From Opitutaceae bacterium (lineage in GTDB: Bacteria > Verrucomicrobiota > Verrucomicrobiia > Opitutales > Opitutaceae): a DNA stretch of 33,928 bases. Below the pieces are notes generated by a model that saw only the letters and a list, made by a program, of their open reading frames with translations, was not told where the DNA came from and did not search any database. The translations under genes and the position numbers were made by a program. This document shows positions 3,008 to 33,928 of this stretch, in pieces. The DNA lies in NCBI GenBank assembly GCA_024711005.1, contig JANJTQ010000299.1, forward strand, positions 1 to 33,928. Reading direction: 5' to 3'. How positions within the stretch are numbered: the first letter of the stretch is position 1; each line of letters opens with the position of its first letter.

Positions 3008-3051
3008 GGCAGGATTTCGTAACTTTTAGGATAGTTTCTACAAGCCCTAAC

Positions 3052-3078: not shown

Positions 3079-3132
3079 ATGCTGACGTACACGAATCCTC
3101 TGGTTTTTCGCCACGTTCCCAATCCTGCCTGC

Positions 3133-3948
3133 ATGAAAAAGCTGATCACCGCCCTTCCTCTACTGGCTTTCGCCACCCTCGGCTTTTCCGCCCCGCTCTT
3201 GGTGGAAAATTTCGACAGCCTCAACATCGCCGACCTCAACGGCCAAAACGGTTGGACCGCCAATGCCGCCCTGGATGTCGCATCCGGCGGACTGTCCTAC
3301 TCGAACGGCGCCATCTCGATCGCCGGCGGCGACAAACACGCCACGTGGTCGGGTGCGGATGTGCAGCCCCTCGGCTTCAAAGCGTTCGCCAGCCAGTCCG
3401 GCGAGGTCTGGTTCAGCCTCACCATCAACGTGACCGCGACCGACACCTCGAGCCGCTTCTGGTTCTACGTCAGCAACGACGCGGACCTCGGCGATGCCGG
3501 TGTCGTCGGCCAGATCAACAACAATAGCACGGCACTCGCCGCCGGCTCCCGAATCGGCTCGTCCCAGGCAATCTCGGGCAACAGCTCGCTCAATGCCGGC
3601 AACACCTTGTTCATCGTGGGACGTTTTTCCCAGTCCCAGACCGGCGGCACCGCCGCGGTCGGCGACTATGACAAGATGGAGATGTGGGTGAACCCCGATT
3701 CGACCACCCTCGGCGTCGCATCCGCCGCCATCAACACCACGGGAACCGGCATCACCAGCGGCATCGATACCTTCGCCCTCACCGCGCTCGGCACCGGATC
3801 CACCGTGCTCTGGGACAACCTTCGCGTGGGCACCACCCAAGCCGATGTGCTGGACGTCTACACCATTCCCGAGCCCTCCAGCTACGCCGCCCTCGGAGGC
3901 CTCGCCGCCATGAGTCTGGCCGCCCTTCGCCGTCGCGCCACGCGCTGA
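3133..3948 (+). CDS. PEP-CTERM sorting-domain protein
   Basis: This is a 271-aa exported surface protein. The start is placed at Met 3133 because it opens a clean signal peptide (MKKLITALPLLAFATLGFSA); the open frame extends 44 codons further upstream but that part overlaps the AraC start and looks non-coding. The body (about 20-240) is Ser/Thr/Gly/Asn-rich and beta-strand-like, resembling lectin-fold verrucomicrobial surface proteins. The C-terminus is a classic PEP-CTERM signal: IPEPSS, a hydrophobic stretch (YAALGGLAAMSLAAL), then RRRATR. Such tails are recognised by an exosortase, which is not in this window. A strong intrinsic terminator follows the stop. The divergent AraC gene may control it. 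The molecular function of the body is unknown. Confidence 0.85.
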   Translation: MKKLITALPLLAFATLGFSAPLLVENFDSLNIADLNGQNGWTANAALDVASGGLSYSNGAISIAGGDKHATWSGADVQPLGFKAFASQSGEVWFSLTINVTATDTSSRFWFYVSNDADLGDAGVVGQINNNSTALAAGSRIGSSQAISGNSSLNAGNTLFIVGRFSQSQTGGTAAVGDYDKMEMWVNPDSTTLGVASAAINTTGTGITSGIDTFALTALGTGSTVLWDNLRVGTTQADVLDVYTIPEPSSYAALGGLAAMSLAALRRRATR

Positions 3949-7372: not shown

Positions 7373-8986
7373 TCACCGTTGAACTTGAGATAGTATTTCG
7401 GTCAGCCATGCATGTGTGGCCTCCTGCTCGTTTTGCGCCTCCGTCGCCTTGCCGATTCGGAGGGCAATATCGGCAACGGAATACGCCCCTTCCGTCGGCT
7501 GCCCCATCACCTGACGGTTAGCCGCAAGGGTGATGTCCTGCCTTACAACGTTCTCCAAAATGATGCGCGCCTGATGGGCCATGTCCTTGGAGACGGCGGT
7601 CTTGAATTCCGGAAGGATCGCTTCCTTGAAAGCCTCGATCGAACCATAGGGTCCGGAAAGCAGATGGTAATTCTTGTCGATGGTCCGCTTGGTTTCGCCT
7701 CCCAAGGCACGCAGAGAAAACCCGTTGATGTAGCCGTCGGAGAGCGGCGCGAAGGACTGAAGCGAACGCGGCACGGCGACATCGGCAACGGCCGGCATCC
7801 AATCGCTCAGTTCGCTGAAACGGGCATTCACCCTCGACGAGGTAAGGTAGCGCAGGAAATCGAGAGCCGCCTCCCTTTGCGTGGACAAGCGCGTGACGCC
7901 GAACGTCAGGCCGGTGTTCACTCCCAGCTCCGATGCGGGACCCAACACGTTGCGTCCGAATCGGGGGGCATCGCGACCGGGTACCGGAACATTGAATACA
8001 TCGATGTTAAACGTCGCCTGCAGGCGGAAACTCGGCGCATCCCAACTCCCGGTGGTGATGAACATCGCGCGTCCCTGAAGAAAATGGAACGCCGCATCTT
8101 CACGGGAAACCTGCATGTACCCGGGCTGCATTCGCATGGCGACCTCGCGTTCGATCGCAAACAGGTCGCCGATCTCCGGCGTATCCAAGTCCCAATCTCC
8201 CCGCAGATAACCGAGCCCGATATCGATCGCTCCATTTTTAAGCGCATTCTGTCGCACGATTTTGCGAACCAGTCTCTGGGTCTGGCTCGAGGCGATCCGG
8301 TCGATCAACATCGGACCGTTGTTCTTCGAGCTGGCGATGGGAATCAGCGAGACGCCCCGCCGCTTCGCATACGCGCTCACGTCATCGCACCGGGCAATGA
8401 ATTCTCCGTAATTGGCGGGCACGGGAGCGTCGCCGAACAGCTCCTTCCAAAGGTCAACGTTGTAGTAAACCCGGACCGTGTGCAGCGACAGCGCGACGCC
8501 ATAGTAGTCCAGGAGATTGGGCCGGTAGTTATACCCGCCCGAAAGACCATCCACAAAGGTCTCCCGCCACGGCATACCCTCGATGGAGGTACCTTCGTTA
8601 TACGGATTGGGTTCGTCGACGACGGCCGTCAACGGCGTGAAGAATCGGGCAAGCATTTCGTCCTCGTTGTTTCCCATCATCCCCAACTGGAGAATATCCG
8701 GCGCCATCTCACCCACCAGTTGAGTGCGCATCCATTGCGGGTAGACCCGCTCCGGAATGGCAATTTGCTTCACCCTTACGCCGGGATGAAGCGCCTCATA
8801 TTCCCGCGCCAGGGTGTCGAAGGCATCCCGCAGTTTGCCCTCAAGCTGCCAATGCGCGAAGCGCAGGGTGACAGCCCCTTCCTGGCTCTCCTCGCGTTCG
8901 CGAGTCATGATGCCCACCAGCGAAAACCCGAAACACGCGAGCAGGAGAGCCAGCCCGATGCCGTTGCCGATGCGTTCGCGTTTCAT
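7373..8986 (-). CDS. Family 1 extracellular solute-binding protein (sugar ABC type)
   Basis: This 537-aa protein would capture sugars or oligosaccharides outside the membrane. It starts with MKRERIG and one hydrophobic segment (about residues 9-27) that could be an uncleaved anchor or signal peptide; the embedded LLAC is only a weak lipobox because hydrophobic residues continue after it. Residues about 40-450 fit the family 1 fold: VTLRFAHWQLEGKLRDAF, FDTLAREYEALHPGVRV, MAPDILQLG, an FLQGRAMFITTGSWD strand and the LDFLRYLTSSRVNARFSE helix near the C-terminal lobe. The length is somewhat above the usual 400-450. Its ATG overlaps the stop of the preceding gene (ATGA), so the two are probably translationally coupled. 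No permease or ATPase gene is in the window, so it would need a partner transporter elsewhere. Confidence 0.85.
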   Translation of the reverse strand: MKRERIGNGIGLALLLACFGFSLVGIMTREREESQEGAVTLRFAHWQLEGKLRDAFDTLAREYEALHPGVRVKQIAIPERVYPQWMRTQLVGEMAPDILQLGMMGNNEDEMLARFFTPLTAVVDEPNPYNEGTSIEGMPWRETFVDGLSGGYNYRPNLLDYYGVALSLHTVRVYYNVDLWKELFGDAPVPANYGEFIARCDDVSAYAKRRGVSLIPIASSKNNGPMLIDRIASSQTQRLVRKIVRQNALKNGAIDIGLGYLRGDWDLDTPEIGDLFAIEREVAMRMQPGYMQVSREDAAFHFLQGRAMFITTGSWDAPSFRLQATFNIDVFNVPVPGRDAPRFGRNVLGPASELGVNTGLTFGVTRLSTQREAALDFLRYLTSSRVNARFSELSDWMPAVADVAVPRSLQSFAPLSDGYINGFSLRALGGETKRTIDKNYHLLSGPYGSIEAFKEAILPEFKTAVSKDMAHQARIILENVVRQDITLAANRQVMGQPTEGAYSVADIALRIGKATEAQNEQEATHAWLTEILSQVQR

Positions 8987-9852
8987 CCCCCCTCCTCCGC
9001 TGTTTTCGTCGGCGCGATGGTGGCGGTGGCAGGCGGTGCGCCCGCATCATTCGCTCCACCGAGTTCCCGACGAATCTCACTCACCATGTGATACCGATTA
9101 TCCCTCCGATAGCCTGACATGAATTTGCCGCAGTATTCCCGGCATAGATCCGCCCGGCCGAGCGATCGAGCCAGGTTTAAGATGTTCACATACACGTCCG
9201 CCTTCAGCGCGCTGCGCGCCACCCCCGCCTGCTCGACGGCAAGATAGAATCCCAGGATCAACTCCGGATCAAAACGGTAACGCTGGCCCGCCTGCGCCAG
9301 CAGCAGATTCAGATCGCGACGCGCTTCGCTCGTTACCAACGAGCCGACCTCGTTCGTATAACCCGTCCAGACCTTGCGGCGTTCGTCAATCGACAGATCC
9401 GGGGCGTAAATCTCGATGATACCCATCTTCACCAATGCCTGCTCCGCGAGTGGATGAATCGGATTGGTCGCGCGCAGCCGCCGGTAGTGGGCCATCGCCG
9501 CCGGTAGATCGGGCGTTCGCCGATGAACCTGTTCGATGCGGCCAAGATAATAACAGGCCGCCAGGCCGAGTTCGTCGCCGGCATCGTCTTCCATGATGCC
9601 GGAGAGCAACTCCACCGCGCGGGTGAGACTTTTCACGGACCTGGTCTGGGCTCCGAGCAACGACAGCGCCTGACCCAGTTGCGCGGCGCGTCCCTCGTAT
9701 CGCTCGAAGACCTCGCGCGCTTCGCCACCACGTCCGATTGAGGCGTTGTGCCACGCCTCGGCGAGCGCGACGTCTGCGGCATCCCCGCTCCAAGCCGCCG
9801 TGGCGGACGAAACCCAGGCGACTCCTACAATCAAAACCATCCGGGTGATCAT
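8983..9852 (-). CDS. Exported alpha-helical repeat (TPR-like) protein of unknown function
   Basis: The start is placed at ATG 9852 (289 aa): AAGGA lies about 8 nt upstream inside the end of the SGNH gene, and the protein then opens with a signal peptide (MITRMVLIVGVAWVSSATAA). The mature part is helical with degenerate tetratricopeptide-like pairs: ALAEAWHNASIGRGGEAREV, LGLAACYYLGRIEQVHR, HPLAEQALVKMGIIEIY, SARRDLNLLLAQAGQRYRF. The tail is Ala/Pro/Thr-rich. It sits 4 bp after the SGNH gene and overlaps the solute-binding protein gene by 4 bp. The tight coupling suggests it is a periplasmic partner of that protein, for instance a scaffold. No catalytic motif is seen, and the exact family is not recognised. 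Confidence 0.7.
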   Translation of the reverse strand: MITRMVLIVGVAWVSSATAAWSGDAADVALAEAWHNASIGRGGEAREVFERYEGRAAQLGQALSLLGAQTRSVKSLTRAVELLSGIMEDDAGDELGLAACYYLGRIEQVHRRTPDLPAAMAHYRRLRATNPIHPLAEQALVKMGIIEIYAPDLSIDERRKVWTGYTNEVGSLVTSEARRDLNLLLAQAGQRYRFDPELILGFYLAVEQAGVARSALKADVYVNILNLARSLGRADLCREYCGKFMSGYRRDNRYHMVSEIRRELGGANDAGAPPATATIAPTKTAEEGG

Positions 9853-9856
9853 GTGG

Positions 9857-11101
9857 CTAGTCCTTGAGGGCCCGGGCCAAAGCCCCGGCAATGGCCGCAT
9901 AACCCGTGCGGTCGAGATGGGCGTCGGTCTTGCGGCCCTTGTCGTAGTGTTTGTTGGCGATCATCTCCGCGTAAGGAACCAACGCGGGCAGATCGATCAT
10001 CGATGCGTTCGGCAGCCGGGCCGCAAGTGCCCGCGCGGCCCGGCGATAGGATACGAGTTTCGCATCGTCCGGATCGCCCAGCACGTGGCTGGGCATGAAC
10101 GCGAAGTGCAACGTCTCCGGCGTGCCGCCCGCCGCAATCCAAGCCTCGGTGAGCAACTGCACGATCCCTTCAAGATTGTCGGCATAACCCTCGGGCGTGT
10201 TGCTGACGAAGCCGCCCGCGGGTCCGATGCTCGGGTTCGACCGGTTGCGGTCATTCAAACCCGAATGAATCATCACAACCGCGGTCTGTTGTCCGTTCAG
10301 CAGCGTGCGAACGTCGGTGAAATAATTGGCCAATTTCCCCACGCCACTGCCGCGCAGCGAGGTGAGCATATCGCGTAACGAATGCCCACCCACCCCATAC
10401 AGCGTGTGATAGGCGAGTCCGTTTTTACGGGCCGTGTTTTCGGCCACGGCCTGTGATGCGAAGAAGGGACCGACGATCGGTTCCTTCACGTTTTGCGGCA
10501 TGAATTGCACCGGGTAATTACGCGACGCATCCGCGGGGAGATCGAGTGTCAGACGCTTGAGACCCAACGTGCCGGTCACCGGTTTCACCGGAGTCTTCAT
10601 TGACGCAAGGATCGTCCACGGCGGCTGGTCGCGGCGCACAACCGGCTCGAACGAGCCGCGCCCCGATTCGAAGGTCCCATAGGTAAAATGAAAGCGCAGT
10701 GGTCCACGCACATCCAAGGGGTGATCCGCCGGAATGATCAACAGACCGCCCTGCCAGCTCACTTTTCCCGTTTCGCCTTCGGGGATGTACCAGTGAAACG
10801 CCTGCTTCGCCAGCGCCTCCGGTGCCTTGGCGGGCGCGGGACCGTCCTGCTCCTTCCATTGCCGGTAAAGCAACAGGTCGCTGGCATAAATGGGTGCGAT
10901 CGTCGCCAGCGCCGTCGGCATCGCCACGGTGTAGCCGTGACCACCGAATCGCTGGTTGGAATCCCCGATGCCGATCACCGCTACACGTTCGTTCTTCGCC
11001 CGCGCAATCGCCGCCTTCAGATTATCTCCGACAACCGGTTCACCAAGGCAGGCGGTCGCGGCCGTCGCCGCGCAAAGTGTCATTATCCATGCGGTCTTCA
11101 T
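9857..11101 (-). CDS. Secreted SGNH/GDSL-type hydrolase
   Basis: This 414-aa exported protein (signal peptide MKTAWIMTLCAATAATA) is a likely carbohydrate esterase of the SGNH superfamily, whose members often remove acetyl or other acyl groups from polysaccharides. Block I is VIGIGDSNQRFGG with catalytic Ser48 in GDSN; block III is VVMIHSGLNDRNR (Gly and Asn of the oxyanion hole); block V is KTDAHLDRTGYAAIA with His395. The Asp-His spacing is D-x-H (Asp393, His395) instead of the usual D-x-x-H. The middle (about 100-240) is an inserted beta-rich part. The gene lies in the seven-gene cluster, 37 bp after the 836-aa gene and 4 bp before the helical-repeat gene. The superfamily call is good; the substrate is unknown. 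Confidence 0.75.
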   Translation of the reverse strand: MKTAWIMTLCAATAATACLGEPVVGDNLKAAIARAKNERVAVIGIGDSNQRFGGHGYTVAMPTALATIAPIYASDLLLYRQWKEQDGPAPAKAPEALAKQAFHWYIPEGETGKVSWQGGLLIIPADHPLDVRGPLRFHFTYGTFESGRGSFEPVVRRDQPPWTILASMKTPVKPVTGTLGLKRLTLDLPADASRNYPVQFMPQNVKEPIVGPFFASQAVAENTARKNGLAYHTLYGVGGHSLRDMLTSLRGSGVGKLANYFTDVRTLLNGQQTAVVMIHSGLNDRNRSNPSIGPAGGFVSNTPEGYADNLEGIVQLLTEAWIAAGGTPETLHFAFMPSHVLGDPDDAKLVSYRRAARALAARLPNASMIDLPALVPYAEMIANKHYDKGRKTDAHLDRTGYAAIAGALARALKD

Positions 11102-11138
11102 AATAGTTTAAAAATGTAGTTTATAACCAAATACGATT
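11102..11138 (-). promoter_or_regulatory. AT-rich leader before SGNH gene
   Basis: This 37-bp gap is strikingly AT-rich against GC-rich surroundings; on the minus strand it contains GGTTATAAACTACATTTTTA just before the ATG. It may be an internal promoter (TATAAA-like -10) or an unstructured ribosome-loading leader, since no Shine-Dalgarno site is present. No convincing -35 box is seen. Confidence 0.3.
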
Positions 11139-13649
11139 CTACGAACGGCCCGCCCAGAAGGCATGCAGCGCCGCGATAAAGCCCCCGTCTTTCCACCAAT
11201 GAATGAGCGAGGTTTGGTCCGAGCGGATCTCGAAGGAAACCCGTCCGCGCGCGTCGAGGTCGCGCGCCGTCACCTCCACCGGGAAAAACGCCTCGGGTGC
11301 TTCCGCGACCACGGGCACTTCCCACCGGCCCACCGCGCGCTTTTCCGGTCCCACCGCAACGCGATAGGCCGCGCCCAACCCCTGCGGATCAAACGAGTGC
11401 AGCAACACCGTCCAGCGTGCGTCCGTGGTTTCCGCGCCGTCTTTCAACCCGGTGATGCGGAAATGAAGCCCGCGAGGATGATACCAGAATGCACGGCCCG
11501 GACCGAAGGAGATGACACCATCCGCATACTCGGACGCATTGACTCCGGCTTGGTGAGGCAGGACGCGATCGTGCGCATACGCGCGGCTGCGTGTTCCCAG
11601 CGGAAGCGCGGCGCCACAATGCGCGGAAATCACCCGTTGTTTGCCGCGGAGAGCGGGGTGACTCCACGCCGTCGCATCGAGCGCGGCGGCGTGCCGGCGC
11701 GTCTCTTCCGCCGCGTCGGCGGCCAGCAACACGCCCGATTTCCCCAGCACGGCCTCGATTTCCTCGGTCGGGAGGATGTCGGCGACGCCACAGCCCCAAA
11801 AACGATACCATCCCTGCAACGGGCCAAACTCCAACACCCGTTCGCCCGCCGGAACCGCGCCCAGCGATTGTTTGGCATCATCAAGCACACAGGCCTTGGC
11901 CAATCTCACCGGAACGCCCACCGCCCCCGTGAGCGGCGCATCGAGATGCAGGTAGGTATGCATGGTTTCTCCTTCCCCGAAGGTCTGCATAACCCAGCGA
12001 TCGTCCCGCCGGGTTCCCCGTTCGCTCCCGACGATGCGCAGCGTCAGCTCACGACGGCCGGTCCAGCCGGCGGGTGCTTCAAGCAGCGTCACGGTGCGTC
12101 CGTCGTCGAGCGCGCCCAGCGGCAGGCGCACAAACTCGCCCAGGCCGGAATCGTCCACCTCGGCGTCCCACACCACAAACGGCGTCGCGCGCGTCAGCGG
12201 CGCGCGTGCCTCCAGGCGAAGGCGACCGGCGGACAGCGGTGTCACCGCCAGCTCCAGCGCCAAGGCCGCGGCAAAATCCATCGGCGCATGAATGTCCGCC
12301 GTGGGGAACTCCCAGCGAGTCCGATAATCGTAGTAGAAAAACGGCAGGTGTGCGCCTTCGCGGATCAGCGCCTTGTAATCGCCACGCTCGATCACGACCG
12401 AGTCGCCGGCCTGGCCCGGTTTGCCGTTTACGGTCACGCCGACCCAGTTGTCGCGCTGACGGAAAGCGCGGTCGGGAAGCCTTGCCACATGACGGTCGTA
12501 ATAGGCGCGCACATCTCCGCTGGTGACGAAGACAAGGTTCTCCGTTTTCGGCAGGGCCAGCAGGCGCGACAGACCTGCGCGATTGTAGGCGGTCATGTTT
12601 GCCGTGCCGAACGTACGGCCAAATTCAAAGCCGGCCACGAAGAAGAAGGGGGCCTCGCCCAGCGGAGAACCACCCTTGATCGTGTCGGTGAGAAACTGCC
12701 GGAAGCGCGACGACTCGTCGCCCGAATCCACCGCGCGAATCCAGCGCGTGAAGTGCGACGGCGACAACACGAAGTCGCCCCAGTGGGTGAGGTGCGGCAA
12801 CAGCACCTGATAATGATTCATGGTGATGCCGAGCACCCCGTGTTTGTCGCGCGCGCCGGCCTTGCGGAAATCATCCGGAGCGATCCAAAACGGGCAAGTC
12901 GGCATGCCCCAGTGATTGATGGCCCACTCGCCGTCGGACCAGTTCTGCTCCGGACACAACGAGTGCACGACGCGAATACCGGCCGCGCGGCAGGCCCGTG
13001 TGAACACATTGCAAGGCGTGTAGGTGGCGATGCGGTCGAGCGGCGCGTAACCTTGCGCCTGCCACCATGCCTGCAATACGCGCAGTCTCGCCTCGATCCC
13101 GGCCAGCGGCAGCGACTCCCAATTCGGATCGTCGTGCGCGAACTCCGAAGCGATCGCGCCGACATCCTTCGCCATGACGTGCGGATGAATCGCATCTCCG
13201 TGCAACCGCTCGTAATCGCGCCAGCGCGGATCGACGGCCGAGAACGCGCCGTCGGCGGCTCTCGACCGAAGCGTCACATAATAATCCGCCGCCACCCGCG
13301 CCTCGTGGATCAGGTCCGCAAAATCCTCCGCCGTGAACGCGCCCACCGTGATCTGGCACACGGCCCATGCCCGATCCACGACCGCGAGCGGACGCCGCAG
13401 CACCTCGCCACCGGCGTCCGCCGTGAATTCGAGCGCGTATTGTCCGCATGCTTCCGGCCTCCACGTCCACGCGGCATCCGCGGTGAGCCGCATGCGGGCG
13501 ATCTCGGCGAAGCCGCCGCGCGCGCCTTCTCGCACGACGAGTTCGCCGGCTCCGTTCGCGGACACCACGACCGACTCGCCCGCGTGCAGAAGCCCGCCCG
13601 GCGATATGCCGAGACGAAGCGCCTGATGAATGCACAAATCGTTTTTCAT
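11139..13649 (-). CDS. Large unrecognised protein, possible (beta/alpha)-barrel carbohydrate enzyme
   Basis: The start is placed at ATG 13649 (836 aa, MKNDLCIHQALRLGIS); an upstream extension would overlap the GH2-like gene in another frame and is Arg-rich, unlike real coding sequence here. No signal peptide is visible, so the protein is probably cytoplasmic, unlike its neighbours. Residues about 20-110 look like an N-terminal beta-sandwich. About 115-450 alternate strands and helices and could be a deacetylase/glycosidase-type barrel: VCQITVGAFTAEDFADLIHE, YTPCNVFTRACRAAGIRVVH, CPEQNWSDGEWAINHWGMPT and GDFVLSPSHFTRWIRAVD, followed by FVTSGDVRAYYDRHVARLPD. The C-terminal half is mostly beta-rich (WEVPVVAEAPEAFFPVEV). 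I do not recognise a named family. Cluster position suggests a role in glycan breakdown, but this is inference. Confidence 0.65.
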   Translation of the reverse strand: MKNDLCIHQALRLGISPGGLLHAGESVVVSANGAGELVVREGARGGFAEIARMRLTADAAWTWRPEACGQYALEFTADAGGEVLRRPLAVVDRAWAVCQITVGAFTAEDFADLIHEARVAADYYVTLRSRAADGAFSAVDPRWRDYERLHGDAIHPHVMAKDVGAIASEFAHDDPNWESLPLAGIEARLRVLQAWWQAQGYAPLDRIATYTPCNVFTRACRAAGIRVVHSLCPEQNWSDGEWAINHWGMPTCPFWIAPDDFRKAGARDKHGVLGITMNHYQVLLPHLTHWGDFVLSPSHFTRWIRAVDSGDESSRFRQFLTDTIKGGSPLGEAPFFFVAGFEFGRTFGTANMTAYNRAGLSRLLALPKTENLVFVTSGDVRAYYDRHVARLPDRAFRQRDNWVGVTVNGKPGQAGDSVVIERGDYKALIREGAHLPFFYYDYRTRWEFPTADIHAPMDFAAALALELAVTPLSAGRLRLEARAPLTRATPFVVWDAEVDDSGLGEFVRLPLGALDDGRTVTLLEAPAGWTGRRELTLRIVGSERGTRRDDRWVMQTFGEGETMHTYLHLDAPLTGAVGVPVRLAKACVLDDAKQSLGAVPAGERVLEFGPLQGWYRFWGCGVADILPTEEIEAVLGKSGVLLAADAAEETRRHAAALDATAWSHPALRGKQRVISAHCGAALPLGTRSRAYAHDRVLPHQAGVNASEYADGVISFGPGRAFWYHPRGLHFRITGLKDGAETTDARWTVLLHSFDPQGLGAAYRVAVGPEKRAVGRWEVPVVAEAPEAFFPVEVTARDLDARGRVSFEIRSDQTSLIHWWKDGGFIAALHAFWAGRS

Positions 13650-13680
13650 GATCAAAGATTGCTGCGTGGGAACTAACTCG

Positions 13681-13706
13681 CTCGCGCCGACCGATCGAAT
13701 CGCGAG
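13681..13706. repeat. Inverted repeat between GH2-like and 836-aa genes
   Basis: CTCGCG (13681-13686) and CGCGAG (13701-13706) are 6-bp inverted arms 14 bp apart within the 82-bp gap between the two genes. It could form a weak hairpin affecting readthrough or mRNA processing. No T-run follows, so it is not a typical terminator. Confidence 0.25.
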
Positions 13707-13731
13707 CAAGCGACCTCCCTCATTAAGCGCC

Positions 13732-16700
13732 TCACCACGGATTGAACCGATACGGATCATCTTCCGCACCCAGCGGGCGGATGTAGAACGGATCACGAGT
13801 CTCGATGTCGGGCTCCGCCCGCAAGGTCTCCGGCGCAGGCACCGATGAAGGCGCCGCCTTGGGAGTCGTCTCGAACACGGCGTCACCGGGGTTGCTCACC
13901 ATCGCCCAGAAACCAAAGCCGCCACTGCCGGATGCCACTTTGGCTTCGAGCAGGGTCCAGCCGGCCTTCAACTTCGCCTTGAAACGAAACTCGCCGGAGA
14001 ACGGCGTGCGTGACGCGCGCCGCTCCTTGCTGTGATCGATACAGGCCTTGCCGTTGACGCGAAACACCAGCCAGTTGTCGGCACCGACGGCGAAGAGCGC
14101 GTCGCGTTCACGGCTGCTGTAAACATAGGTGCGGGCGTAGCCGATCTTGCCGGTCTGCGCGGGCGACACCCAGTCGAGGTGCACGCGTCCCGTGCTGCCG
14201 CGCGGACCGTAGGTGCGCCAGCCCGCACTGCTGGAGGCGACCGTTAGGCCGGCTTCACCGACCTCTCCCTCGCCGATATTCGCCGAGACGGAGCTGTCGT
14301 CGCTCACGCCGCCGCCGGCGTCGGCGGACGCGGCCCTGTCGGACTCCATCGGGAAACGTCGTGCGAGCCCGGGGAACGTGCCGTCTTTCGTGACCGGCTC
14401 GACCTGTGCCACACTGTTGAATACGCGCCACACCGACACGTTCATCAACGGAGCCACGCGGCGCGGAGTGAAGAGCGCGGCCGCGACGTCGTTATTCGTG
14501 CGTGCCCCCAGATTCGTGAGCAACTGGCGATAAAACTGCACCGTGTGCCATTTCGGTTTTTCAAGGTTGGGCGAACCGTCGGCAAACGCGGTCCAGTCAA
14601 GCTGGCTGAACACCAGTCGGCCTCCCCCCTTCGTTTGATCGAGCACCAATCCATCGAGCAACACCCGGGCGCCGGCGGGCTGCTCCTCGCGGGTGAAACG
14701 TTGCTGCGTGACAAAGGTGCGCCACGCCAGCAGTTGCGGACCGACACCGCGCAACAGCGACGCATCCCCGGGCGCGGCGCGGGCGGCTTTGACCTCGATT
14801 GTCCTCAACACACCGGCCGGTTGCGGCAACACCAGCACGATGCCGCCGGCGGATGCGAAGGTCTCGGCGCGGGCGCGTTGTGACGGCCACGCACCGGGCC
14901 CGACAACCAACAGATCGGTCTGCGGATTCAACTCGCCGGAACCGGCGCGCTCGGCGGCCAGCTCGATGGCGCGCACATAGTCCCACCCGGTGTCATCGCC
15001 GGCATAACGAATGAGCTTGTGGTTGCTCGTCGCGTAAGGTCGATCGAGCGCACGGACAAGATTGCCCGCCACACGACGCGCGATCGGATCGAGCGCAGTG
15101 CGCCCCGTGAGATCGAACTGGGAGAAAATCACGCCGCCCTGCCCGTGGCGCCACTCCAAGAGCGGACTGTGGGCGAGATCGAACTCGGCTTCGACCAGCG
15201 GCGTGAATGCGCCGTGGGCCGGCGTTTCGATCACGACCGAGGCGACCGCGCCTTGGTTGCCCCAATGCGGTGGGCGCGCCAACGGCCAGGGCTTCATGCC
15301 AACCTTGGTCTTCGGCAGGAGATCCGGTTCGCCGCGCCAGTTGGCAAAGTCGACGGCGGCAAGTCCGCGCAACGCCTCGTGCGTCCGGTCGCGCGGGAAG
15401 GCATACCTCGTAACAATATCCTGGATACGCAGGCCGATCGATTCCAAGGCGACGGGATCTTGCTCCAACACCAGCACACGCAGGCCGCGAGCGATGTCGG
15501 TCGCGTCAAAGGGCAGGTTTTCGACCAGACCCTCGCGGGCGATCACCAGCACCTCGATGCGATTGCGCGACAGGTCTGCGCGGTTCTTCACCGGCACGGG
15601 GTTCGCGCCCAAGGAACGCAGCCAACCGGCGGATTTCCCCTGCGGATCGAAGAGTCCCCAGCGCGAACGGATGGCCACGGGCTGCTCCTCGGGCCAAAAA
15701 GAGAGATCCATGCCGTCCTCGATGCGCGTGCCGTCACCGCTAATGACGAGAGTCAGGCGGGCCACGGTGCGTTCGGCGACAACCGGGGCGGTCAACGTGA
15801 AGGGTTTTTTGACGATATCACCGGGCTGGAGCGCGATTTCAGTCGAGCCTTGTTGCAGAACCTTGCCGTCGGTTTCGAGGCGCCATTCGGCCTGAAGGGT
15901 GCGGGGGGCGTTGCCGTCCCAGACGACGACCGCGGTCTTCTCGAACGTTTCGCCGGAACGGAAGGCGTGGTCCTTGGCGGTGAAGCGCGCGGACGGCCCG
16001 CCGAGATAGGCCAGCAACGGCTGCATGGTGGCGCGGTAGGCGTGATAGATCGGGTTTGCCCATTCGGGCGCAGCGGCGAGCGTGGCGCGCGCCTCGGGCT
16101 CGGTGAGTTCGGTGTAGGAATAACCGTCCCCCTTTTTGGGTTTTCCCTGAATCGCGGGCGGCACGCCGTAGCCGATGTTGAAGTTCCATGGCTTCCAACC
16201 GCCGGCCACGCCCCAGGCGCGCCACGCGCGATTGGTCTCGGTCGTGAAGAGCGTGTCGAACTCCCAATGCAACGTGAGATCCGCGAATTGCCCCCACTCT
16301 TCGGGCCGAGGACGCTTGGCGTTTCGGGAGAGAAAATCGGTGACGAGCGTCACGTAGCCGTCGGACTCGGCCTGGTAGGCGCGGTCGCCAAAATAGACCG
16401 CGTGCCATTCGGTGAACTGCGGGATCTTGAGCGGCTTCAGGAAATTCGCCAGGTACGGCGTACCGTGCTCGATTGCGCCCCAGGGGATGTCGCCGTTCGC
16501 CGCCCAATGGGAGGGAAACTCGATGCGTTCCTGCAACGGAAGGAAGTTCAGGTATTGGTTGGGATAGTCGATCTCGCCGCCGGGGCCGCAGTGCTGCGCG
16601 ACGATGCGCGTCGGGTCGACGGACTTGATGATCTCAGTGGAACGGGTCGCCCAGCCGGGCACGCGGTCCTCACCCTCGGGCAGCATGCCGAGTCGCTCGG

Positions 16701-18108
16701 CGTTTTCACGAGAGGAGCTTCCGGTGTTCATCGACGGGTTCCACATGATGATCGAGGGATGGTTGCGCAGGCGCTTGAACCACAGGCGGCACTCGCGTTC
16801 GTAGGCGGCCCGTCCCTCTGGCGAACCCATCGCGCCGCGCACGAGGCTGACCAAGGGCGAAGGCATGAGCAGGGCGAAACCGCGGCGGTCGGCGTTCTCT
16901 ATCACATCGGCCGCGATGCGCCGCTGGCCGGGGTTGTCCTCGTCGGAAATGATCAGCGAGCGCAGGCCGTTTCCAAGGAACCAGGATCCGCCGTTGGGAT
17001 GCCATTGGGCCGCGTTGAAGCCGATGCCCTCCCAGAAAAGCAGCGCCGGCCAGCTGACGGAAATAACGGGCGCGAGGCGCAGCCGGATCGGACGGCCGTT
17101 CATCATGATCTCGCGACCGGCGACCCAGACTTCGCGGAAACCAAACGGCTCGGGGTCGGGCTCATGAATGACCCGCCCCTGCACGTCGAGCAACGAGGTC
17201 TTCACTTGATACAGGTAACCGTCCCCGAGTTGCCAGAGGCGCGGAGACGCCCATGGAATGACGACCGTCTGCGTGCCCGCGCCGGTCAGGGCGAGCGGCA
17301 CGGTGACAGCGCCCGGAAGTTGTCCGCCCCGCCCAGCGGTATCCATTATCTGAATGCGCAGGGAGGCGGATTTGGCGGCGAGCGCCGACTGAACGTCAAC
17401 GTCGACCGAAATGTTTTTTTCACGGAAAGAAGGACGGGCGAACACGCCGGTGATCTCGGCCGCGGCGGGACGCACTTGAAGGGTGACGTAACCGGAGAGG
17501 CCGGCGGGGATGGTCTTGCGCACGGCGTCGAGCCCGCCCTTCGTGCGGAGGGCGCTGGTCTTAAGCGCCTCGCGGCGCAACGGTGCATCATCCATGGTGC
17601 GCGGAAGATCGCGCCACCAACGCGTCACCCACAGGCGCACGGTCGCGTCTTGTCCGGGGTTGATGCGGGACGTGATGTCCACCCGAGCCTCGGGACCGGC
17701 CAGGAGAATCGGTTCGCCGCCGTTCACCCAAAGGAGGGCGTCGCATTCGATCTGATCGAAGGCGAGCCAGACGCGTTGCCCGCGCCAGGCGGCGGGAACC
17801 GAGATCGTGCGCTCGAACCAACCGTTGTCTTCGGCACGCCACTTGTTCGGGTTCTTCGCCCAGTCGGAGAGCGAACGGTCCGCGGGCTCGAGCATACGGG
17901 ATCCGCCACTCGTCCAGAGGAAGGGGACCTTCACGGCCTCCCAGGTTCCGGCCTGAGGTGGCTTCGCGACGGCTTCGCCTGGCTGGAAGAGCCACTCGCC
18001 GATTCGGCTGTCCTCACCCTCGGGAGCGAACGCGGGCAGTGTCCCGGAGGCGAAGGCAGGAAGAGCGGTTAACAGGCCGAAGACGAGGGCCGGGAGAACT
18101 CGAAGCAT
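13732..18108 (-). CDS. Very large secreted GH2-like protein
   Basis: The start is taken as ATG 18108 (1458 aa), which opens a signal peptide (MLRVLPALVFGLLTALPAFA); a TTG five codons upstream is less likely. Residues about 25-230 are a GH2 sugar-binding jelly roll (WRGQRVWLAFDQIECDALLW). About 230-340 is an Ig-like domain and about 345-700 the TIM barrel. The HPSIIMW strand is present, but where GH2 enzymes have the acid/base Glu (W-S-x-G-N-E) this protein has WNPSMNTG with Asn461. PQFTEWHAVYF offers Glu567 as a nucleophile candidate. About 720 to the C-terminus holds beta domains, a Rossmann-like region (QTDLLVVGPGAWPSQ) and a late PA14/jelly-roll-like module (WLVFRVNGKACIDHS). It is far longer than simple beta-galactosidases. 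Position in the cluster supports glycan binding or cleavage; activity is uncertain. Confidence 0.8.
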   Translation of the reverse strand: MLRVLPALVFGLLTALPAFASGTLPAFAPEGEDSRIGEWLFQPGEAVAKPPQAGTWEAVKVPFLWTSGGSRMLEPADRSLSDWAKNPNKWRAEDNGWFERTISVPAAWRGQRVWLAFDQIECDALLWVNGGEPILLAGPEARVDITSRINPGQDATVRLWVTRWWRDLPRTMDDAPLRREALKTSALRTKGGLDAVRKTIPAGLSGYVTLQVRPAAAEITGVFARPSFREKNISVDVDVQSALAAKSASLRIQIMDTAGRGGQLPGAVTVPLALTGAGTQTVVIPWASPRLWQLGDGYLYQVKTSLLDVQGRVIHEPDPEPFGFREVWVAGREIMMNGRPIRLRLAPVISVSWPALLFWEGIGFNAAQWHPNGGSWFLGNGLRSLIISDEDNPGQRRIAADVIENADRRGFALLMPSPLVSLVRGAMGSPEGRAAYERECRLWFKRLRNHPSIIMWNPSMNTGSSSRENAERLGMLPEGEDRVPGWATRSTEIIKSVDPTRIVAQHCGPGGEIDYPNQYLNFLPLQERIEFPSHWAANGDIPWGAIEHGTPYLANFLKPLKIPQFTEWHAVYFGDRAYQAESDGYVTLVTDFLSRNAKRPRPEEWGQFADLTLHWEFDTLFTTETNRAWRAWGVAGGWKPWNFNIGYGVPPAIQGKPKKGDGYSYTELTEPEARATLAAAPEWANPIYHAYRATMQPLLAYLGGPSARFTAKDHAFRSGETFEKTAVVVWDGNAPRTLQAEWRLETDGKVLQQGSTEIALQPGDIVKKPFTLTAPVVAERTVARLTLVISGDGTRIEDGMDLSFWPEEQPVAIRSRWGLFDPQGKSAGWLRSLGANPVPVKNRADLSRNRIEVLVIAREGLVENLPFDATDIARGLRVLVLEQDPVALESIGLRIQDIVTRYAFPRDRTHEALRGLAAVDFANWRGEPDLLPKTKVGMKPWPLARPPHWGNQGAVASVVIETPAHGAFTPLVEAEFDLAHSPLLEWRHGQGGVIFSQFDLTGRTALDPIARRVAGNLVRALDRPYATSNHKLIRYAGDDTGWDYVRAIELAAERAGSGELNPQTDLLVVGPGAWPSQRARAETFASAGGIVLVLPQPAGVLRTIEVKAARAAPGDASLLRGVGPQLLAWRTFVTQQRFTREEQPAGARVLLDGLVLDQTKGGGRLVFSQLDWTAFADGSPNLEKPKWHTVQFYRQLLTNLGARTNNDVAAALFTPRRVAPLMNVSVWRVFNSVAQVEPVTKDGTFPGLARRFPMESDRAASADAGGGVSDDSSVSANIGEGEVGEAGLTVASSSAGWRTYGPRGSTGRVHLDWVSPAQTGKIGYARTYVYSSRERDALFAVGADNWLVFRVNGKACIDHSKERRASRTPFSGEFRFKAKLKAGWTLLEAKVASGSGGFGFWAMVSNPGDAVFETTPKAAPSSVPAPETLRAEPDIETRDPFYIRPLGAEDDPYRFNPW

Positions 18109-18142
18109 GAGGATGGAGAACAAGGGAACGAAGAAAGACGGT

Positions 18143-20107
18143 TCAGACGGCGCGGCGACGACGCGACAGGCCGGCGGTCAGCAGACCCGCGATCCCGATG
18201 ATCAACGCGACGCTGCCCGGCTCCGGAATGGCCACCGCAATGGCGGTCAGGACCAGATCGTTGCCGTCGCCGCCCAGATAGCTGGCCTGCCACGTGATGC
18301 CGTTGGCTGTAAACTGCCCTTCGTCGGCGAGGTTCGAGAAGGTGCCGGCGATGGACGAAACGCCGCTGTTACTGAGAACGACAAAGCTGTCGTTGAGCGA
18401 AACGCCGCCGCCGTCCCCGATGTCGATGAAGTTAAGAAACGCCGAGTTGCCAATGGTGACGCCGTTGGCTGCGATGAAGCCGCCGGTGCCGGTCGTGCTG
18501 TTAAACGTGAACAGCAACTCGGCGTCGGATTTAAACTCCAGTGCTCCCGTTGTGGAGAAACCGCCGACGTCCGCGCCGACCGCGAACACGGCGTCGCGCG
18601 TGCCGGAGGCGTTGCCGATCATGACATCGCCCGTAGTGGAGCCGGCTCCGCCGAACACGCCGGCGTTGACGATCACCGCGCTGGTGAGCGTGCCGTCGAC
18701 GAACAAGGTGCCCTCCTGGACGGTGGTGTTGCCGGTGTAGGTGTTGGTGCCGGTGAGTATCCACTTGCCGGCGCCCAGCTTGACGAAGCTGGTGGTGCCG
18801 GAGCCGTTGTTGCCGAGTGAAAGTGCGAAGGTGTTGTCGCCGGTATTGGATCCCAACAAACGCAAGGTCCGGTTCTGATTGCCCGTTCCACCAAAGGCCA
18901 CCGCACCGGTGTTGGTGAAGTTCAGCGCCCCCGTGCCGGAGGATTCGATGTTGCCGCCGCCGGTATGGTTGAGACTGAACAGGCGATCGGTGGAGTCTCC
19001 CTCGCCCAAGTAGCGCAGCGTGCCCGATAAGCTTCCGTTGTTGCCGAGAACGAGATTGGTCGCGGCATTCGACGATTGGCCAATGGAACTGGCGAGACCT
19101 CCGTCGGCGAGCTTCGTAACCTCGAGAACACCCGTCTGGACCTCGGTGCGGCCAAGGTAAGTATTGGCGACGTTCTGGAATACGGTGGTGCCCGTCCCGC
19201 TTTGGTAATTGACCAACATCCGGGTCGCGCCGGTGGTGTTGGAAATCGCACCCTCGAAAACGAGTTTGGCACCGGCGACGGCGCCCGTGCGAAAATCGCC
19301 CGTATAAGTGCCGAACTCCAAGTCGGTGGAATAGGTGAGCGTGCCGCCCCCGCCCTTGTGCTGGATGGCCACCGGACCGGCGGACAAACTGCCAAACACA
19401 ATGGCGCGATCGGTGGTCTGGTCGGTCGAGCCAATATAGCCCAACGAAGAGTTGCGCCCCATGGTAATGGTTCCGTTGGCCGCGCTCGAGGCCGCGCCCA
19501 ACGCGGAGGGACCGCCACCCACGGAGCTCACCGAAGTGAAATTGAGAATGCCACTGTTGATAAAGATAGGCGCGTCAAAGGTGTTCGCGGTGTTGTTGAC
19601 GGTGACGACCGTGTTGGCGCTGGTTCCTCCAAACGTAATCCTTCCGCTTCCGGACGCAGTGCCGGTGAGCAGGCCGTCGACGACCAACCGCCCGGTGCCC
19701 GTGCTGCCGTCGTTAAACGTGCGCGCGGCAGAAATGTCGCCCAACGCCAATGTCACACCGCTGCCAATGGTGATCGGGTTTCCGCCTTGGCTGACCTGCG
19801 GAAGAAAGACGCTGCCTCCCAAATTGATCGTACCGGCGCCACCGAGGGTCAGGCCGACGCTCGAGGTGCCCCAACGGAAATCCAATGACGTCAGCGTCGC
19901 ATCGCCTGACAGGTCCGCGAACGCGCTCGAGGTGTTGCCCGTGAAGTCGCCGTTGATCACCCCACCGGTCCAGTTTGCGGTGTCGTTAAAATCGGTGCCG
20001 GATCCACCGGCGCCGGATCCAATCCATTGGGCGTTGGCGGTCGAAAGTCCCAGGAACAACGGGGCGCCCAAAAAGGCGGTGACTGCTTTGAGTACGTGTT
20101 TTTTCAT
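18143..20107 (-). CDS. Autotransporter-associated beta-strand repeat protein with PEP-CTERM tail
   Basis: The start is placed at ATG 20107 (654 aa), giving a signal peptide MKKHVLKAVTAFLGAPLFLG and then AQWIGSGAGGSGTDFNDTAN; the open frame upstream looks non-coding. The body is Gly/Asn/Thr/Ser-rich, low in Cys, and predicted to be a long beta-helix. The repeat typical of this family appears as GKWILTGTNTYTGNTTVQEG then TLFVDGTL, with related strands such as RTEVQTGVLEVTKLADGG. The C-terminus is PEP-CTERM: IPEPGS, a hydrophobic segment (VALIIGIAGLLTAGL), then SRRRRAV. No autotransporter barrel is present, so surface anchoring would rely on exosortase. It lies between the prepilin-like and GH2-like genes. 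A role in adhesion or a glycan-binding surface layer is inferred. Confidence 0.88.
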   Translation of the reverse strand: MKKHVLKAVTAFLGAPLFLGLSTANAQWIGSGAGGSGTDFNDTANWTGGVINGDFTGNTSSAFADLSGDATLTSLDFRWGTSSVGLTLGGAGTINLGGSVFLPQVSQGGNPITIGSGVTLALGDISAARTFNDGSTGTGRLVVDGLLTGTASGSGRITFGGTSANTVVTVNNTANTFDAPIFINSGILNFTSVSSVGGGPSALGAASSAANGTITMGRNSSLGYIGSTDQTTDRAIVFGSLSAGPVAIQHKGGGGTLTYSTDLEFGTYTGDFRTGAVAGAKLVFEGAISNTTGATRMLVNYQSGTGTTVFQNVANTYLGRTEVQTGVLEVTKLADGGLASSIGQSSNAATNLVLGNNGSLSGTLRYLGEGDSTDRLFSLNHTGGGNIESSGTGALNFTNTGAVAFGGTGNQNRTLRLLGSNTGDNTFALSLGNNGSGTTSFVKLGAGKWILTGTNTYTGNTTVQEGTLFVDGTLTSAVIVNAGVFGGAGSTTGDVMIGNASGTRDAVFAVGADVGGFSTTGALEFKSDAELLFTFNSTTGTGGFIAANGVTIGNSAFLNFIDIGDGGGVSLNDSFVVLSNSGVSSIAGTFSNLADEGQFTANGITWQASYLGGDGNDLVLTAIAVAIPEPGSVALIIGIAGLLTAGLSRRRRAV

Positions 20108-20153
20108 AACGAGGGGTTTGGGTTGGCGTAAAAGTTGGTTGAAGATTTCAGCG

Positions 20154-20169
20154 CATCGCGGAGGCGATG
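20154..20169. repeat. Perfect short hairpin between prepilin and beta-repeat genes
   Basis: CATCGC (20154-20159), GGAG, GCGATG (20164-20169) form a perfect 6-bp stem with a 4-nt loop in the 114-bp gap. It may attenuate transcription after the prepilin-like gene or serve as an operator. No T-run follows on either strand. Confidence 0.35.
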
Positions 20170-20221
20170 GCCGGACGCTTGGACGGTCGGCAGGCAGGTT
20201 CCGGAGGGAGTGCAACTTCGC

Positions 20222-20914
20222 TCACCACCAACGCCAGCGATTGCCATTATCGAAGGTGCCGGTCGCGACGAGTTGGGCACGGCCCAGCGCCTCGACGTGC
20301 CCGTCGCAATAGCCCATCAGCGCCTTGGTACCCTCGGCGCGGCGGAACCCCGGAAGCGCGCCCTGATTACTGGCCGCCGTCGTCTGGTCGGCGCGCAATC
20401 CGCTCACCTCGTCGACGTTCTTCTCTTCACATTCGCCAAGCAAAATGATGCGCGACGGATTCGGCACGACGTTCAATCGATAATCCCAGTTTGAACTACG
20501 GAGTTCCCAGTTCCGGGCGATGGACGCCGCGGCCGCGGAACGCTCGTCGAATGGTTTGCTGTCGGGAACGTTGAAAACAGTGGACGGATCCTGGCGAAGA
20601 CGCCGCTTGCCGGCGCCGTCGTTCGGCACGGTGACGTTGAGGTAGGGTGCCAGAGTCTCCTGCCACACGGGTGAACTCCCCGCGGTGTACTTAAGCGGCA
20701 CCTTCCCGCGGTGGTCGGCGGCATAGGCGATGTGCGCGGTGACGAGCTGACGAATGTTGCTGATGGCTTTCGCCGTGTTGGCTTTTTTCCGCATGCCACC
20801 CACCACCGGAATGGTGATGGCGACCAGTACGCCGATGACCGCAATCACCGTCAGCAGCTCCACCAACGTGAAGCCCGCGACGGGACGGACGGCAAAGCAG
20901 GATCTCGATTTCAT
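20222..20914 (-). CDS. Prepilin-like protein (type II secretion/type IV pilin N-terminal motif)
   Basis: The start is set at ATG 20914 (230 aa). After a short basic leader (MKSRSCFAVRPVAG) comes the prepilin peptidase site G^FTLVELL, with Glu5 of the mature protein and the hydrophobic helix LLTVIAVIGVLVAITIPVVGG. The rest is a soluble domain with WQETLAPYLN, WDYRLNVVPNPSRIILLGE and a final MGYCDGHVEALGR, close to the DG-H motif seen in the large pseudopilin-like families of planctomycetes and verrucomicrobia. A dedicated prepilin peptidase or secretion apparatus is not in the window. It is the first gene of the seven-gene cluster and is divergent from lacI. A role in a pseudopilus or surface assembly is inferred from the motif. 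Confidence 0.88.
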   Translation of the reverse strand: MKSRSCFAVRPVAGFTLVELLTVIAVIGVLVAITIPVVGGMRKKANTAKAISNIRQLVTAHIAYAADHRGKVPLKYTAGSSPVWQETLAPYLNVTVPNDGAGKRRLRQDPSTVFNVPDSKPFDERSAAAASIARNWELRSSNWDYRLNVVPNPSRIILLGECEEKNVDEVSGLRADQTTAASNQGALPGFRRAEGTKALMGYCDGHVEALGRAQLVATGTFDNGNRWRWW

Positions 20915-21010: not shown

Positions 21011-21030
21011 GCACTCATCACGATGAGTGC
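21011..21030. promoter_or_regulatory. Candidate LacI-family operator
   Basis: GCACTCATC and GATGAGTGC are perfect 9-bp inverted arms around a 2-bp centre, 50 bp upstream of the LacI-family start and about 97 bp upstream of the prepilin-like start. Size and symmetry fit LacI-family operators. The core CTCAT-N4-ATGAG recurs upstream of the beta-helix gene (26082-26095) and was not found elsewhere in the window by eye. Confidence 0.65.
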
Positions 21031-21080: not shown

Positions 21081-22097
21081 ATGCCGAACCAACGCTCCAT
21101 CGCCGCCGAGCTGGGCCTCAATCAGGCCAGCGTCTCCCTCGCCCTGCGCGGTCATCCATCGATCCCGGAAGCCACCCGCAAACTCGTAGCGGAAACCGCC
21201 ACCCGCCTCGGGTACCGGCCCAACGCCTACGTCTCCTCCCTGATGACGCACATCCGCTCCGGCCGGCCACTCCGCGACCAAGGTTGCATCGCCCTGCTGT
21301 TCAATCGCGCCTCGCTTGAGGAGGACTACAGCACCCCCAACCAGAGCTTTCACCGTCAGTTGCAGGGAGCCGTGCGACGCGCGGAGGGACTCGGATTTCA
21401 TACCGAGAATTTTTTTCTGCGAGGTCCGGGTATGAGTGCCCGCCGCATCAACCGCATTCTGCACACACGTGGTATTCGCGGCCTCGTGCTGATGCCCGCC
21501 GGCCATCACGCGGACATCGCCGGCATCCACTGGCCCCACCACGCCTGCGCCACCGTCGCCTACAGTTGGTCTCAACCGGAAACGCACCGCGTGGCCACCG
21601 ACCATCGCCATCATGTCGATGTCGCCTACCAGACTTTGCTCGACCGTGGTTGCCGGCGCATCGGCTTCTGTCTCGCCCCCGAGGCCGAGGAGGGCGTCAA
21701 CGGCGCGTGGACCGACCGCCATCTCCTTTGGCAGAAACGTCTCGCCTACAAAAAACCCATTCCGCTCTTCGTCGGAAAACCGGGACTGACGCCTTTCGTC
21801 GAATTCAAACGTTGGTTCGCCAAGTCCAAGCCCGACGCGCTCATCACGCTCATCGGCCACGAAGACGAGTGGCTTGAACGCATGGGCCTGCGCGCACCCG
21901 ACGACCTCTCGCTCGTCTGCCTCAATCGTCCGCCGAACAGTCGGTTCTCCGGCATGGAGGAAAACCACGAGGTCATCGGCGGGACCGCCGCCGAACTTGT
22001 GATCACTCAAATCCTCCACAACGAATACGGCCTGCCTTCACATCCCCGCCTCATCCTGATCAAAGGAATGTGGTTCGAGGGCGAAACCATCGGCTGA
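21081..22097 (+). CDS. LacI-family transcriptional regulator
   Basis: This 338-aa regulator has an N-terminal helix-turn-helix (SIAAELGLNQASVSLALRG then HPSIPEATRKLV and the hinge helix region ATRLGYRPNAYVSSLM), followed from about residue 65 by a periplasmic-binding-protein-like effector domain (GCIALLFNRA, RGIRGLVLMPAG, VDVAYQTLLDRGCRRIGFCL, DALITLIGHEDEWLERMG, APDDLSLVCLNRPP). Length and order are normal. Such proteins usually repress glycan-use genes until a sugar binds. It is divergent from the seven-gene cluster, and a strong palindrome lies in the shared region, so control of the cluster and of itself is likely (inference). No Shine-Dalgarno site is visible. Confidence 0.92.
   Translation: MPNQRSIAAELGLNQASVSLALRGHPSIPEATRKLVAETATRLGYRPNAYVSSLMTHIRSGRPLRDQGCIALLFNRASLEEDYSTPNQSFHRQLQGAVRRAEGLGFHTENFFLRGPGMSARRINRILHTRGIRGLVLMPAGHHADIAGIHWPHHACATVAYSWSQPETHRVATDHRHHVDVAYQTLLDRGCRRIGFCLAPEAEEGVNGAWTDRHLLWQKRLAYKKPIPLFVGKPGLTPFVEFKRWFAKSKPDALITLIGHEDEWLERMGLRAPDDLSLVCLNRPPNSRFSGMEENHEVIGGTAAELVITQILHNEYGLPSHPRLILIKGMWFEGETIG

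Positions 22098-29858: not shown

Positions 29859-33928
<4,070 letters not shown>

Follow-up and report, generated by a model that had tools for sequence, protein, structure and literature searches.

A cluster of seven minus-strand genes (7373–20914) was analysed in a window of 33,928 nucleotides, contig C323 of an Opitutaceae bacterium genome (5.01 Mb in 351 contigs, 96.6% complete). The cluster is divergent from a gene for a LacI-family regulator and ends with a gene pair encoding a helical-repeat (TPR-like) protein and a solute-binding protein (SBP) of the SBP_bac_1/8 type, as found in ABC sugar importers of the MalEFGK type. We infer that one permease, encoded elsewhere in the genome, is common to many such TPR–SBP modules, because the SBP matches, an unlinked permease operon and the co-occurrence of the two across genomes fit together. 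From these sequence comparisons, the main new point appears to be the missing permease – many TPR–SBP pairs that would depend on one distant permease type.

A probable permease encoded at a distance

Nine SBP matches were found in the genome, each on its own contig. Two of these, on contigs C271 and C159, may be the two halves of one gene, and so the genome encodes eight or nine SBPs of this type. No ABC-permease domain was found near the TPR–SBP pairs at any of the 8–9 occurrences. There are 18 BPD_transp_1 domains in the genome, and only two of them, a pair on C189, are on the same contig as any of the nine SBPs, ca. 16 kb away and adjoining another SBP gene. An operon for MalF, MalG and MsmK (BPD_transp_1, BPD_transp_1, and ABC_tran with the MalK OB fold by Pfam) is found on contig C227, and no SBP is encoded on this 6.7-kb contig.

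Among 150 genomes of the family, an SBP match of some kind was found in 48, and in 35 of these it reached E<1e-50. A close MalF, meaning one with 48% identity or more or, in G135, a contig-edge fragment with 79%, was present in all 35 of these genomes and in 2 of the 115 others (Fisher's p = 3.5e-32, a value that ignores relatedness). The two exceptions are G111 and G063, the latter with a weaker SBP match (3e-20) just upstream of its close MalF. Permeases are fewer than binding proteins: the 35 genomes have at least 161 SBP matches (E≤1e-3, with up to nine candidates scored per genome) and one close MalF each, except for two in G012 and two in G033. The co-occurrence is also seen within the genus of the present genome, g1: SBP and MalF are both present in four sampled genomes (G000, G041, G097 and G117); five others (G134, G150, G164, G178 and G190, the last two with SBP matches of only 1e-5 and 5e-4) have neither. 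In a quick tree of 62 SBPs and an outgroup (SH-aLRT support only, with the cut rows L059 and L060 left out), the seven complete SBPs of the present genome fall in a clade of 22 rows with an SH-aLRT of 97. The only SBP match in G117 is of this clade, and the MalFGK genes of G117 are on a separate contig.

In some genomes the two parts are linked. The single-contig genome G075 has the gene order TPR–SBP–MalF–MalG, with MalF 82% and MalG 73% identical to those of C227. SBP genes are also adjacent to MalF in G012 (MalF identity 65%), G033 (55%), G051 (56%), G094 (76%, divergent) and G123 (80%). The SBP on C271/C159 is of the MalF-linked kind found in G075 (59% over 155 residues and 50% over 361 residues). 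In total, a listed SBP lies within 10 kb of the close MalF in at least 7 of the 35 genomes (G012, G033, G051, G075, G094, G123 and G140). The close-MalF stretches of ten further genomes (11 to 19 kb; L176–L185), which were chosen because no listed SBP lay nearby, contained no SBP.

A sequence-only reading of this DNA, made before the present analysis, had stated that the cluster has no permease. This holds for the window, in which neither the permease nor the ATPase of an ABC sugar importer was found among the 18 proteins scanned with Pfam, and an overlooked permease there was thus ruled out. The system as a whole does not appear to be permease-free, with the likely permease encoded elsewhere. 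A cluster lacking any transport system was rejected as well, on the grounds that the SBP family tracks one MalF type.

A second gene for MsmK (82% identical to that of C227) follows a MalG-like gene (31%) on contig C148 (L063:1870–3879); no MalF or SBP gene was called in that 8-kb stretch.

The TPR–SBP pair

In the present genome a TPR gene is directly upstream, with a 4-bp overlap, of eight of the nine SBP genes, and the ninth starts at a contig edge. For 64 SBP genes on 59 chosen stretches, a TPR gene is directly upstream on the same strand in 51 cases, 38 of which have the 4-bp overlap. Within three genes of the SBP gene, TPR is found in 55 of the 64 cases and MalF in 6.

A single-sequence model of the TPR-like protein is all-helical, with low confidence (mean pLDDT 55.6). 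Two of its homologues score over TPR cut-offs, in G051 (TPR_6, 35.9) and L055 (TPR_14, 29.5). Nearly all of the SBPs (56 of 59 full-length cases) have an N-terminal hydrophobic stretch, while few have an AxA motif after it (12) or a lipobox-like motif (4), so that most look membrane-anchored.

Several of the pairs in this genome have genes of glycan metabolism as neighbours: a GH31 gene in L053, CBM9-bearing proteins in L055 and L057, and in L054 a gene similar to the GH16 gene of the window. In both L054 and L108, a protein of ca. 1200 aa with a prepilin-like start, as judged by eye, is encoded two genes upstream of the TPR gene and adjoining a GH16-like gene. Other neighbours are of different kinds. 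The pair adjoins gap-pgk-tpi genes at L058:4175–6555 (contig C182 of this genome, by Pfam) and, by eye, in L109 (G097) and L112 (G041). A major facilitator superfamily (MFS) gene is directly beside the pair in L054 (contig C53 of this genome) and in L111 (G097). In L105, L150 and L156 (G049, G021 and G059), two SBP genes with TPR genes are found close together.

The seven-gene cluster

The features of the cluster and its regulator are as follows, with percentages giving identity to genes of G005, a genome from another genus.

7373–8986, minus strand: SBP, 537 aa, with an N-terminal hydrophobic stretch; SBP_bac_8 38.5 bits (cut-off 27); 4-bp overlap with the TPR gene
8983–9852, minus strand: helical-repeat (TPR-like) protein of 289 aa, paired with the SBP; TPR_8 16.9 bits, under the cut-off of 25.7
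9857–11101, minus strand: SGNH/GDSL hydrolase, 414 aa; Lipase_GDSL_2 31.6 bits, just under the cut-off of 32.9; 55% homologue adjoining the GH2-like gene in G005
11139–13649, minus strand: 836-aa protein without a Pfam, NCBIfam or PDB sequence match; AlphaFold2 model
13732–18108, minus strand: GH2-like protein, 1458 aa; Glyco_hydro_2 37.3 bits (cut-off 23); GH2 structures matched; 61% full-length homologue in G005
18143–20107, minus strand: beta-strand-repeat (PATR) protein, 654 aa; PATR 47.5 bits; PEP-CTERM 14.0 bits (cut-off 20.7); 51% homologue in G005
20222–20914, minus strand: prepilin-like protein, 230 aa; Pfam N_methyl 24.5 bits (cut-off 21.2); 48% identical gene at the G005 locus
21011–21030, no strand: operator-like palindrome (arms of 9 bp, spacer of 2 bp) between the LacI and pilin genes; shorter counterpart in G005
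21081–22097, plus strand: LacI-family regulator; Peripla_BP_3 37.5 bits; LacI 21.3 bits, under the cut-off of 27; 51% identical gene at the G005 locus

All seven open reading frames are present on the minus strand, co-directional and tightly packed, with distances of 114, 34, 82, 37, 4 and −4 bp in transcription order, in agreement with the short gaps and overlaps described in the sequence-only reading. As the LacI gene is divergent, the unit consists of the seven genes, and LacI faces away from it. Most of the protein assignments made in that reading were also borne out: the prepilin-like, GH2-like and solute-binding proteins score over their Pfam cut-offs, the 836-aa protein called unrecognised has no Pfam match, the SGNH hydrolase falls just short of its cut-off, and the helical-repeat protein, itself below the TPR_8 cut-off, has homologues that pass. 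For the proposed beta-strand-repeat PEP-CTERM protein, the repeats are clear and the PEP-CTERM match is below threshold. The absence of a SusC/SusD pair was likewise confirmed among the 18 Pfam-scanned proteins, and the cluster is not classed as a Bacteroidota-type polysaccharide utilisation locus (PUL). Judged by eye, the SGNH hydrolase has a probable signal peptide and the GH2-like protein is probably secreted.

Gene order in relatives

Part of the cluster is conserved in G005, where homologues of five of the eight genes, those for LacI, pilin, SGNH hydrolase, repeat protein and GH2-like protein, are found in one neighbourhood. This locus rules out a gene order unique to the window, and the gene-order check that had been suggested for relatives was thus passed in one relative for these five genes. 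In G005 the LacI gene is divergent from pilin–GH2–SGNH, and the repeat-protein gene is beyond LacI on the far side. For genes outside the window that were called with a codon-usage caller trained on the window genes, the calls are approximate.

A pilin gene is present in 7 of the 10 neighbourhoods of GH2-like homologues (the window, G005 and L212–L219). Without the two most distant neighbourhoods the count is 7 of 8, compared to ca. 0.18 expected per 19-kb stretch at the pilin density of the present genome.

A related cluster is found on contig C62 of the same genome. There, LacI-type and pilin genes are again divergently arranged, and the cluster also encodes a second copy of the 836-aa protein (65%), an MFS transporter, a protein of 1314 aa that Pfam assigns to GHL10 and whose C-terminal region is shared with the GH2-like protein, and a product that by eye is of the GH29 type, the G097 counterpart of which is Alpha_L_fucos by Pfam. 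This appears to be a similar plan with a different uptake part.

The earlier reading of the cluster as a possible exosortase-linked glycan-use system was supported in part. A regulated glycan-use unit is supported by the partly conserved order in G005, the palindrome with its counterpart, and the related C62 cluster; the 836-aa, TPR and SBP genes are not at the G005 locus. With the GH2-like protein, the SGNH hydrolase and the LacI regulator encoded together, partly kept in G005, the cluster resembles the verrucomicrobial glycan loci that lack SusCD.

Regulation

The palindrome at 21011–21030 is the only one of its kind in the window. G005 has a palindrome with 6-bp arms at the aligned position (L211:2906–2921), and a C-to-T difference in one arm is paired with a G-to-A difference in the other (one symmetric pair). 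We read the palindrome as a putative LacI operator on the strength of these two loci. A scan of other LacI gaps gave no palindrome in common with the window, G005 excepted. Promoter and terminator scans gave no more matches than in shuffled sequences.

The 836-aa protein

The 836-aa protein has no match in sequence databases of families or structures (Pfam, NCBIfam, PDB), and a profile of its family gave nothing against PDB sequences to E 1. The possibility of a spurious open reading frame was ruled out by homologues at 11 loci found in a scan of GTDB contigs, by those in G046, G051 and G097 (the G097 homologue seems to be one already counted among the 11, L022), and by the second copy in the same genome. 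The 11 loci are from Rariglobus, Verrucomicrobium, Verrucomicrobiales (two), Lentisphaeria, Kiritimatiellae, Victivallis vadensis, Omnitrophota, Armatimonadetes and two uncultured bacteria. The family is rare, with matches in 5 of 200 genomes of the family Opitutaceae (one of them short and with stops) and in 1 of 177 genomes of the order, which is the present genome itself.

An AlphaFold2 model made from 10 sequences (mean pLDDT 79, with some barrel loops below 50) predicts an N-terminal beta domain, a (beta/alpha) barrel at ca. 94–450, and a C-terminal CBM35-like beta domain. The best structural match is PDB 3lm3, a putative glycoside hydrolase/deacetylase (BDI_3119), with Z 19.4 and rmsd 3.8 over 338 aligned residues (model 88–529), followed by GH57 (Z 13.3, 227–230 aligned) and CE4 (Z 12.2, 178 aligned). 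The C-terminus matches the CBM35 fold (Z 9.1, 122 aligned). TM-scores in the whole-model Foldseek list were low, and the fold assignment comes from structure comparison with the families on that list. The predicted barrel is thus of a GH57/CE4-like fold, like those of CE4, GH57 and 3lm3; unlike these, the protein has no PDB sequence match and has extra beta domains at both ends. By this model, the protein would belong to a rare, unannotated family with a deacetylase/GH57-like barrel. Residues invariant in the ten sequences include H115, D152, Y210, N214, D239, H246, D260 and E342.

In G051, the 836-aa gene follows TPR–SBP–MalF–MalG–MsmK on the same strand, starting ca. 4 bp past MsmK by the called start. 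No signal peptide was seen by eye in the window's protein. A cytoplasmic enzyme that acts on imported sugar is the role we would assign to it. Two relatives, L029 (Kiritimatiellae) and L031 (Omnitrophota), seemingly have signal peptides by eye.

The GH2-like protein

The profile of the GH2 beta domain is clear, while that of the GH2 barrel is weak (12.9, cut-off 21). The canonical acid/base motif of GH2 enzymes is NE. In a motif comparison of nine GH2-like sequences, the Glu at the nucleophile position was kept in all nine, as in the beta-glucuronidases and beta-galactosidases of GH2, whose domain profile the protein shares. In contrast to those enzymes, the residue after Asn in the acid/base motif was not Glu in any of the nine, and was Thr, Val, Ser or Ala instead. 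The protein may use another acid/base, or may not hydrolyse ordinary glycosides.

Of the nine GH2-like rows (the window's protein and those of L212–L218 among them), seven have a C-terminal DPY-x-F-x-x-W; of the remaining two, one is truncated at the border of its stretch and the other has a different C-terminus.

PEP-CTERM and exosortase

By eye, the C-terminus of the repeat protein has PEP, a hydrophobic stretch and RRRR, and the protein probably carries a PEP-CTERM signal. A genome-wide PEP-CTERM search (E≤1e-3) gave only one match within the window, to another protein, at 3862–3936. Four Exosortase_EpsH matches in the genome are over the cut-off. The genome has 51 pilin and 55 PEP-CTERM matches, so neither domain is rare there, and the chance of at least one in a random 14-kb stretch is ca. 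0.13 for pilin and ca. 0.14 for PEP-CTERM. The description of the cluster as exosortase-linked is weakly supported: its PEP-CTERM match falls short of the threshold, and the genome has many such signals.

Proposed function and alternatives

It is reasonably probable that the cluster is a LacI-switched glycan-utilisation locus, and that its TPR–SBP pair is a plug-in specificity module of a system with one permease and many binding proteins. In such a locus, LacI bound to the palindrome would repress the seven genes until released by a sugar ligand. The GH2-like protein and the SGNH hydrolase, outside the cytoplasm, would trim and de-esterify the polysaccharide, and the pilin-like and beta-strand-repeat proteins would help to bind or hold it. 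Periplasmic oligosaccharides would be caught by the membrane-anchored SBP with its TPR partner and passed to MalF–MalG–MsmK of C227, the importer common to the other TPR–SBP pairs of the genome. The imported sugar would then be processed in the cytoplasm by the 836-aa barrel protein. A broader proposal is held more tentatively: that Opitutaceae have many glycan loci without an inner-membrane importer of their own, each with a TPR–SBP cartridge (often with the 4-bp overlap) that docks to one genome-wide MalF–MalG hub, with TPR as the docking adaptor, the loci competing for the hub, and the 836-aa protein founding a new family for intracellular glycoside processing.

A number of observations weigh against the proposed system. 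No 836-aa, TPR or SBP gene was called at the G005 locus, and these genes are therefore not an obligate part of the unit. None of the MalF-adjacent SBPs is in the window's 22-row clade; the six that are known are in other clades, mixed with unlinked ones, and the pairing with C227 consequently rests on co-occurrence, not linkage. In that co-occurrence, kinship was handled by the within-genus comparison only, and in G111 a close MalF stands without any SBP match. The assembly is in 351 contigs, and contig edges cut off several of the SBP stretches; the reading frames of SBP and MalF in G051 are interrupted. The pairs beside gap-pgk-tpi indicate that some pairs are outside glycan loci, and those beside MFS genes make a non-ABC partner conceivable. 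Nothing was found in the data to explain the route through the outer membrane.

The MFS genes would also fit a different role, in which the TPR–SBP pair is a sensor or scavenging device: it would bind a fragment of glycan, to report its presence or to concentrate it, and uptake would be via secondary transporters such as MFS. MFS genes adjoin the pair on C53 and in G097, the C62 cluster has one where the window has TPR–SBP, and the window's SBP clade has no linked permease. This role is nonetheless unlikely, as one MalF type accompanies the strong SBP matches in all 35 genomes that have them and follows their presence and absence within genus g1, and 6 of 64 SBP genes are within three genes of that MalF. 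It is also rather improbable that the seven genes are neighbours and not one unit, with LacI, pilin, repeat, GH2 and SGNH genes as the glycan locus and the 836-aa and TPR–SBP genes added without a common substrate. The G005 locus has the first set only, and TPR–SBP pairs are found beside gap-pgk-tpi in L058 and, by eye, in L109 and L112; against this, all seven genes have one direction with gaps of at most 114 bp, and sugar importers are encoded near the 836-aa gene in G051 and on C62. Very improbable is a surface-structure operon (pilin, repeat and exosortase-anchored proteins) for adhesion or matrix, the enzymes of which remodel the cell's own glycan. Such an operon would account for the pilin-like and beta-repeat proteins and for the four exosortase genes in the genome, but LacI control, the SBP and the importer-linked 836-aa protein point to catabolism, and the PEP-CTERM match is sub-threshold.

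Relation to known systems

Multiple or orphan SBPs that use one ABC importer were reportedly described by Thomas in 2010 and by Chen et al. in 2010. The service of several SBPs by one permease is an established principle (references in PMC12838199), and the cellodextrin importer of A. bescii has two SBPs and MsmK (excerpts of PMC12838199). The present system would be alike in having several binding proteins feed one permease with an MsmK-type ATPase. It differs from the importers in those excerpts in that the eight or nine SBPs are dispersed, have a TPR partner gene, and in several cases are in separate glycan loci.

Metagenome-assembled genomes (MAGs) of Verrucomicrobiota without SusCD and yet with PUL-like units have been reported (excerpts of PMC8857213), and the absence of SusCD alone is therefore not new. 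Sugar transporters in five of those units were suggested as a replacement for SusCD, and study of outer-membrane transporters was called for (same excerpts). Carbohydrate loci with TonB receptors are described for two freshwater MAGs in excerpts of PMC5615132. As far as the excerpts of PMC8857213 go, its loci are like the present one in their co-localised glycan enzymes without SusC/SusD and in having putative sugar transporters as stand-ins. The difference is that the inner-membrane part here is a TPR–SBP pair without its own permease, which would use a distant one. No description of a TPR–SBP/shared-permease system in Verrucomicrobiota was found among the matches listed (titles and abstract openings of the open-licence PMC literature).

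A hub permease with interchangeable TPR–SBP modules would concern the inner-membrane step only. It would give a testable reason for loci without a permease, with the TPR–SBP pair as a marker for finding them, and if it is true, one two-gene deletion should abolish growth on several sugars together. Two protein families are candidate sources of new enzymology: that of the 836-aa protein, and the GH2-like one, which lacks the usual acid/base Glu.

Other features of the window

An Rfam scan gave no match at gathering scores. At 3001–3948, the window encodes a separate PEP-CTERM protein that scores over the curated cut-off and adjoins AraC-type and PocR-type regulators and the GH16 gene. A hybrid sensor kinase is encoded at 29859–33902 by Pfam, with five HAMP stretches, GAF, HisKA, HATPase and three receiver stretches, and is open at the end of the window.

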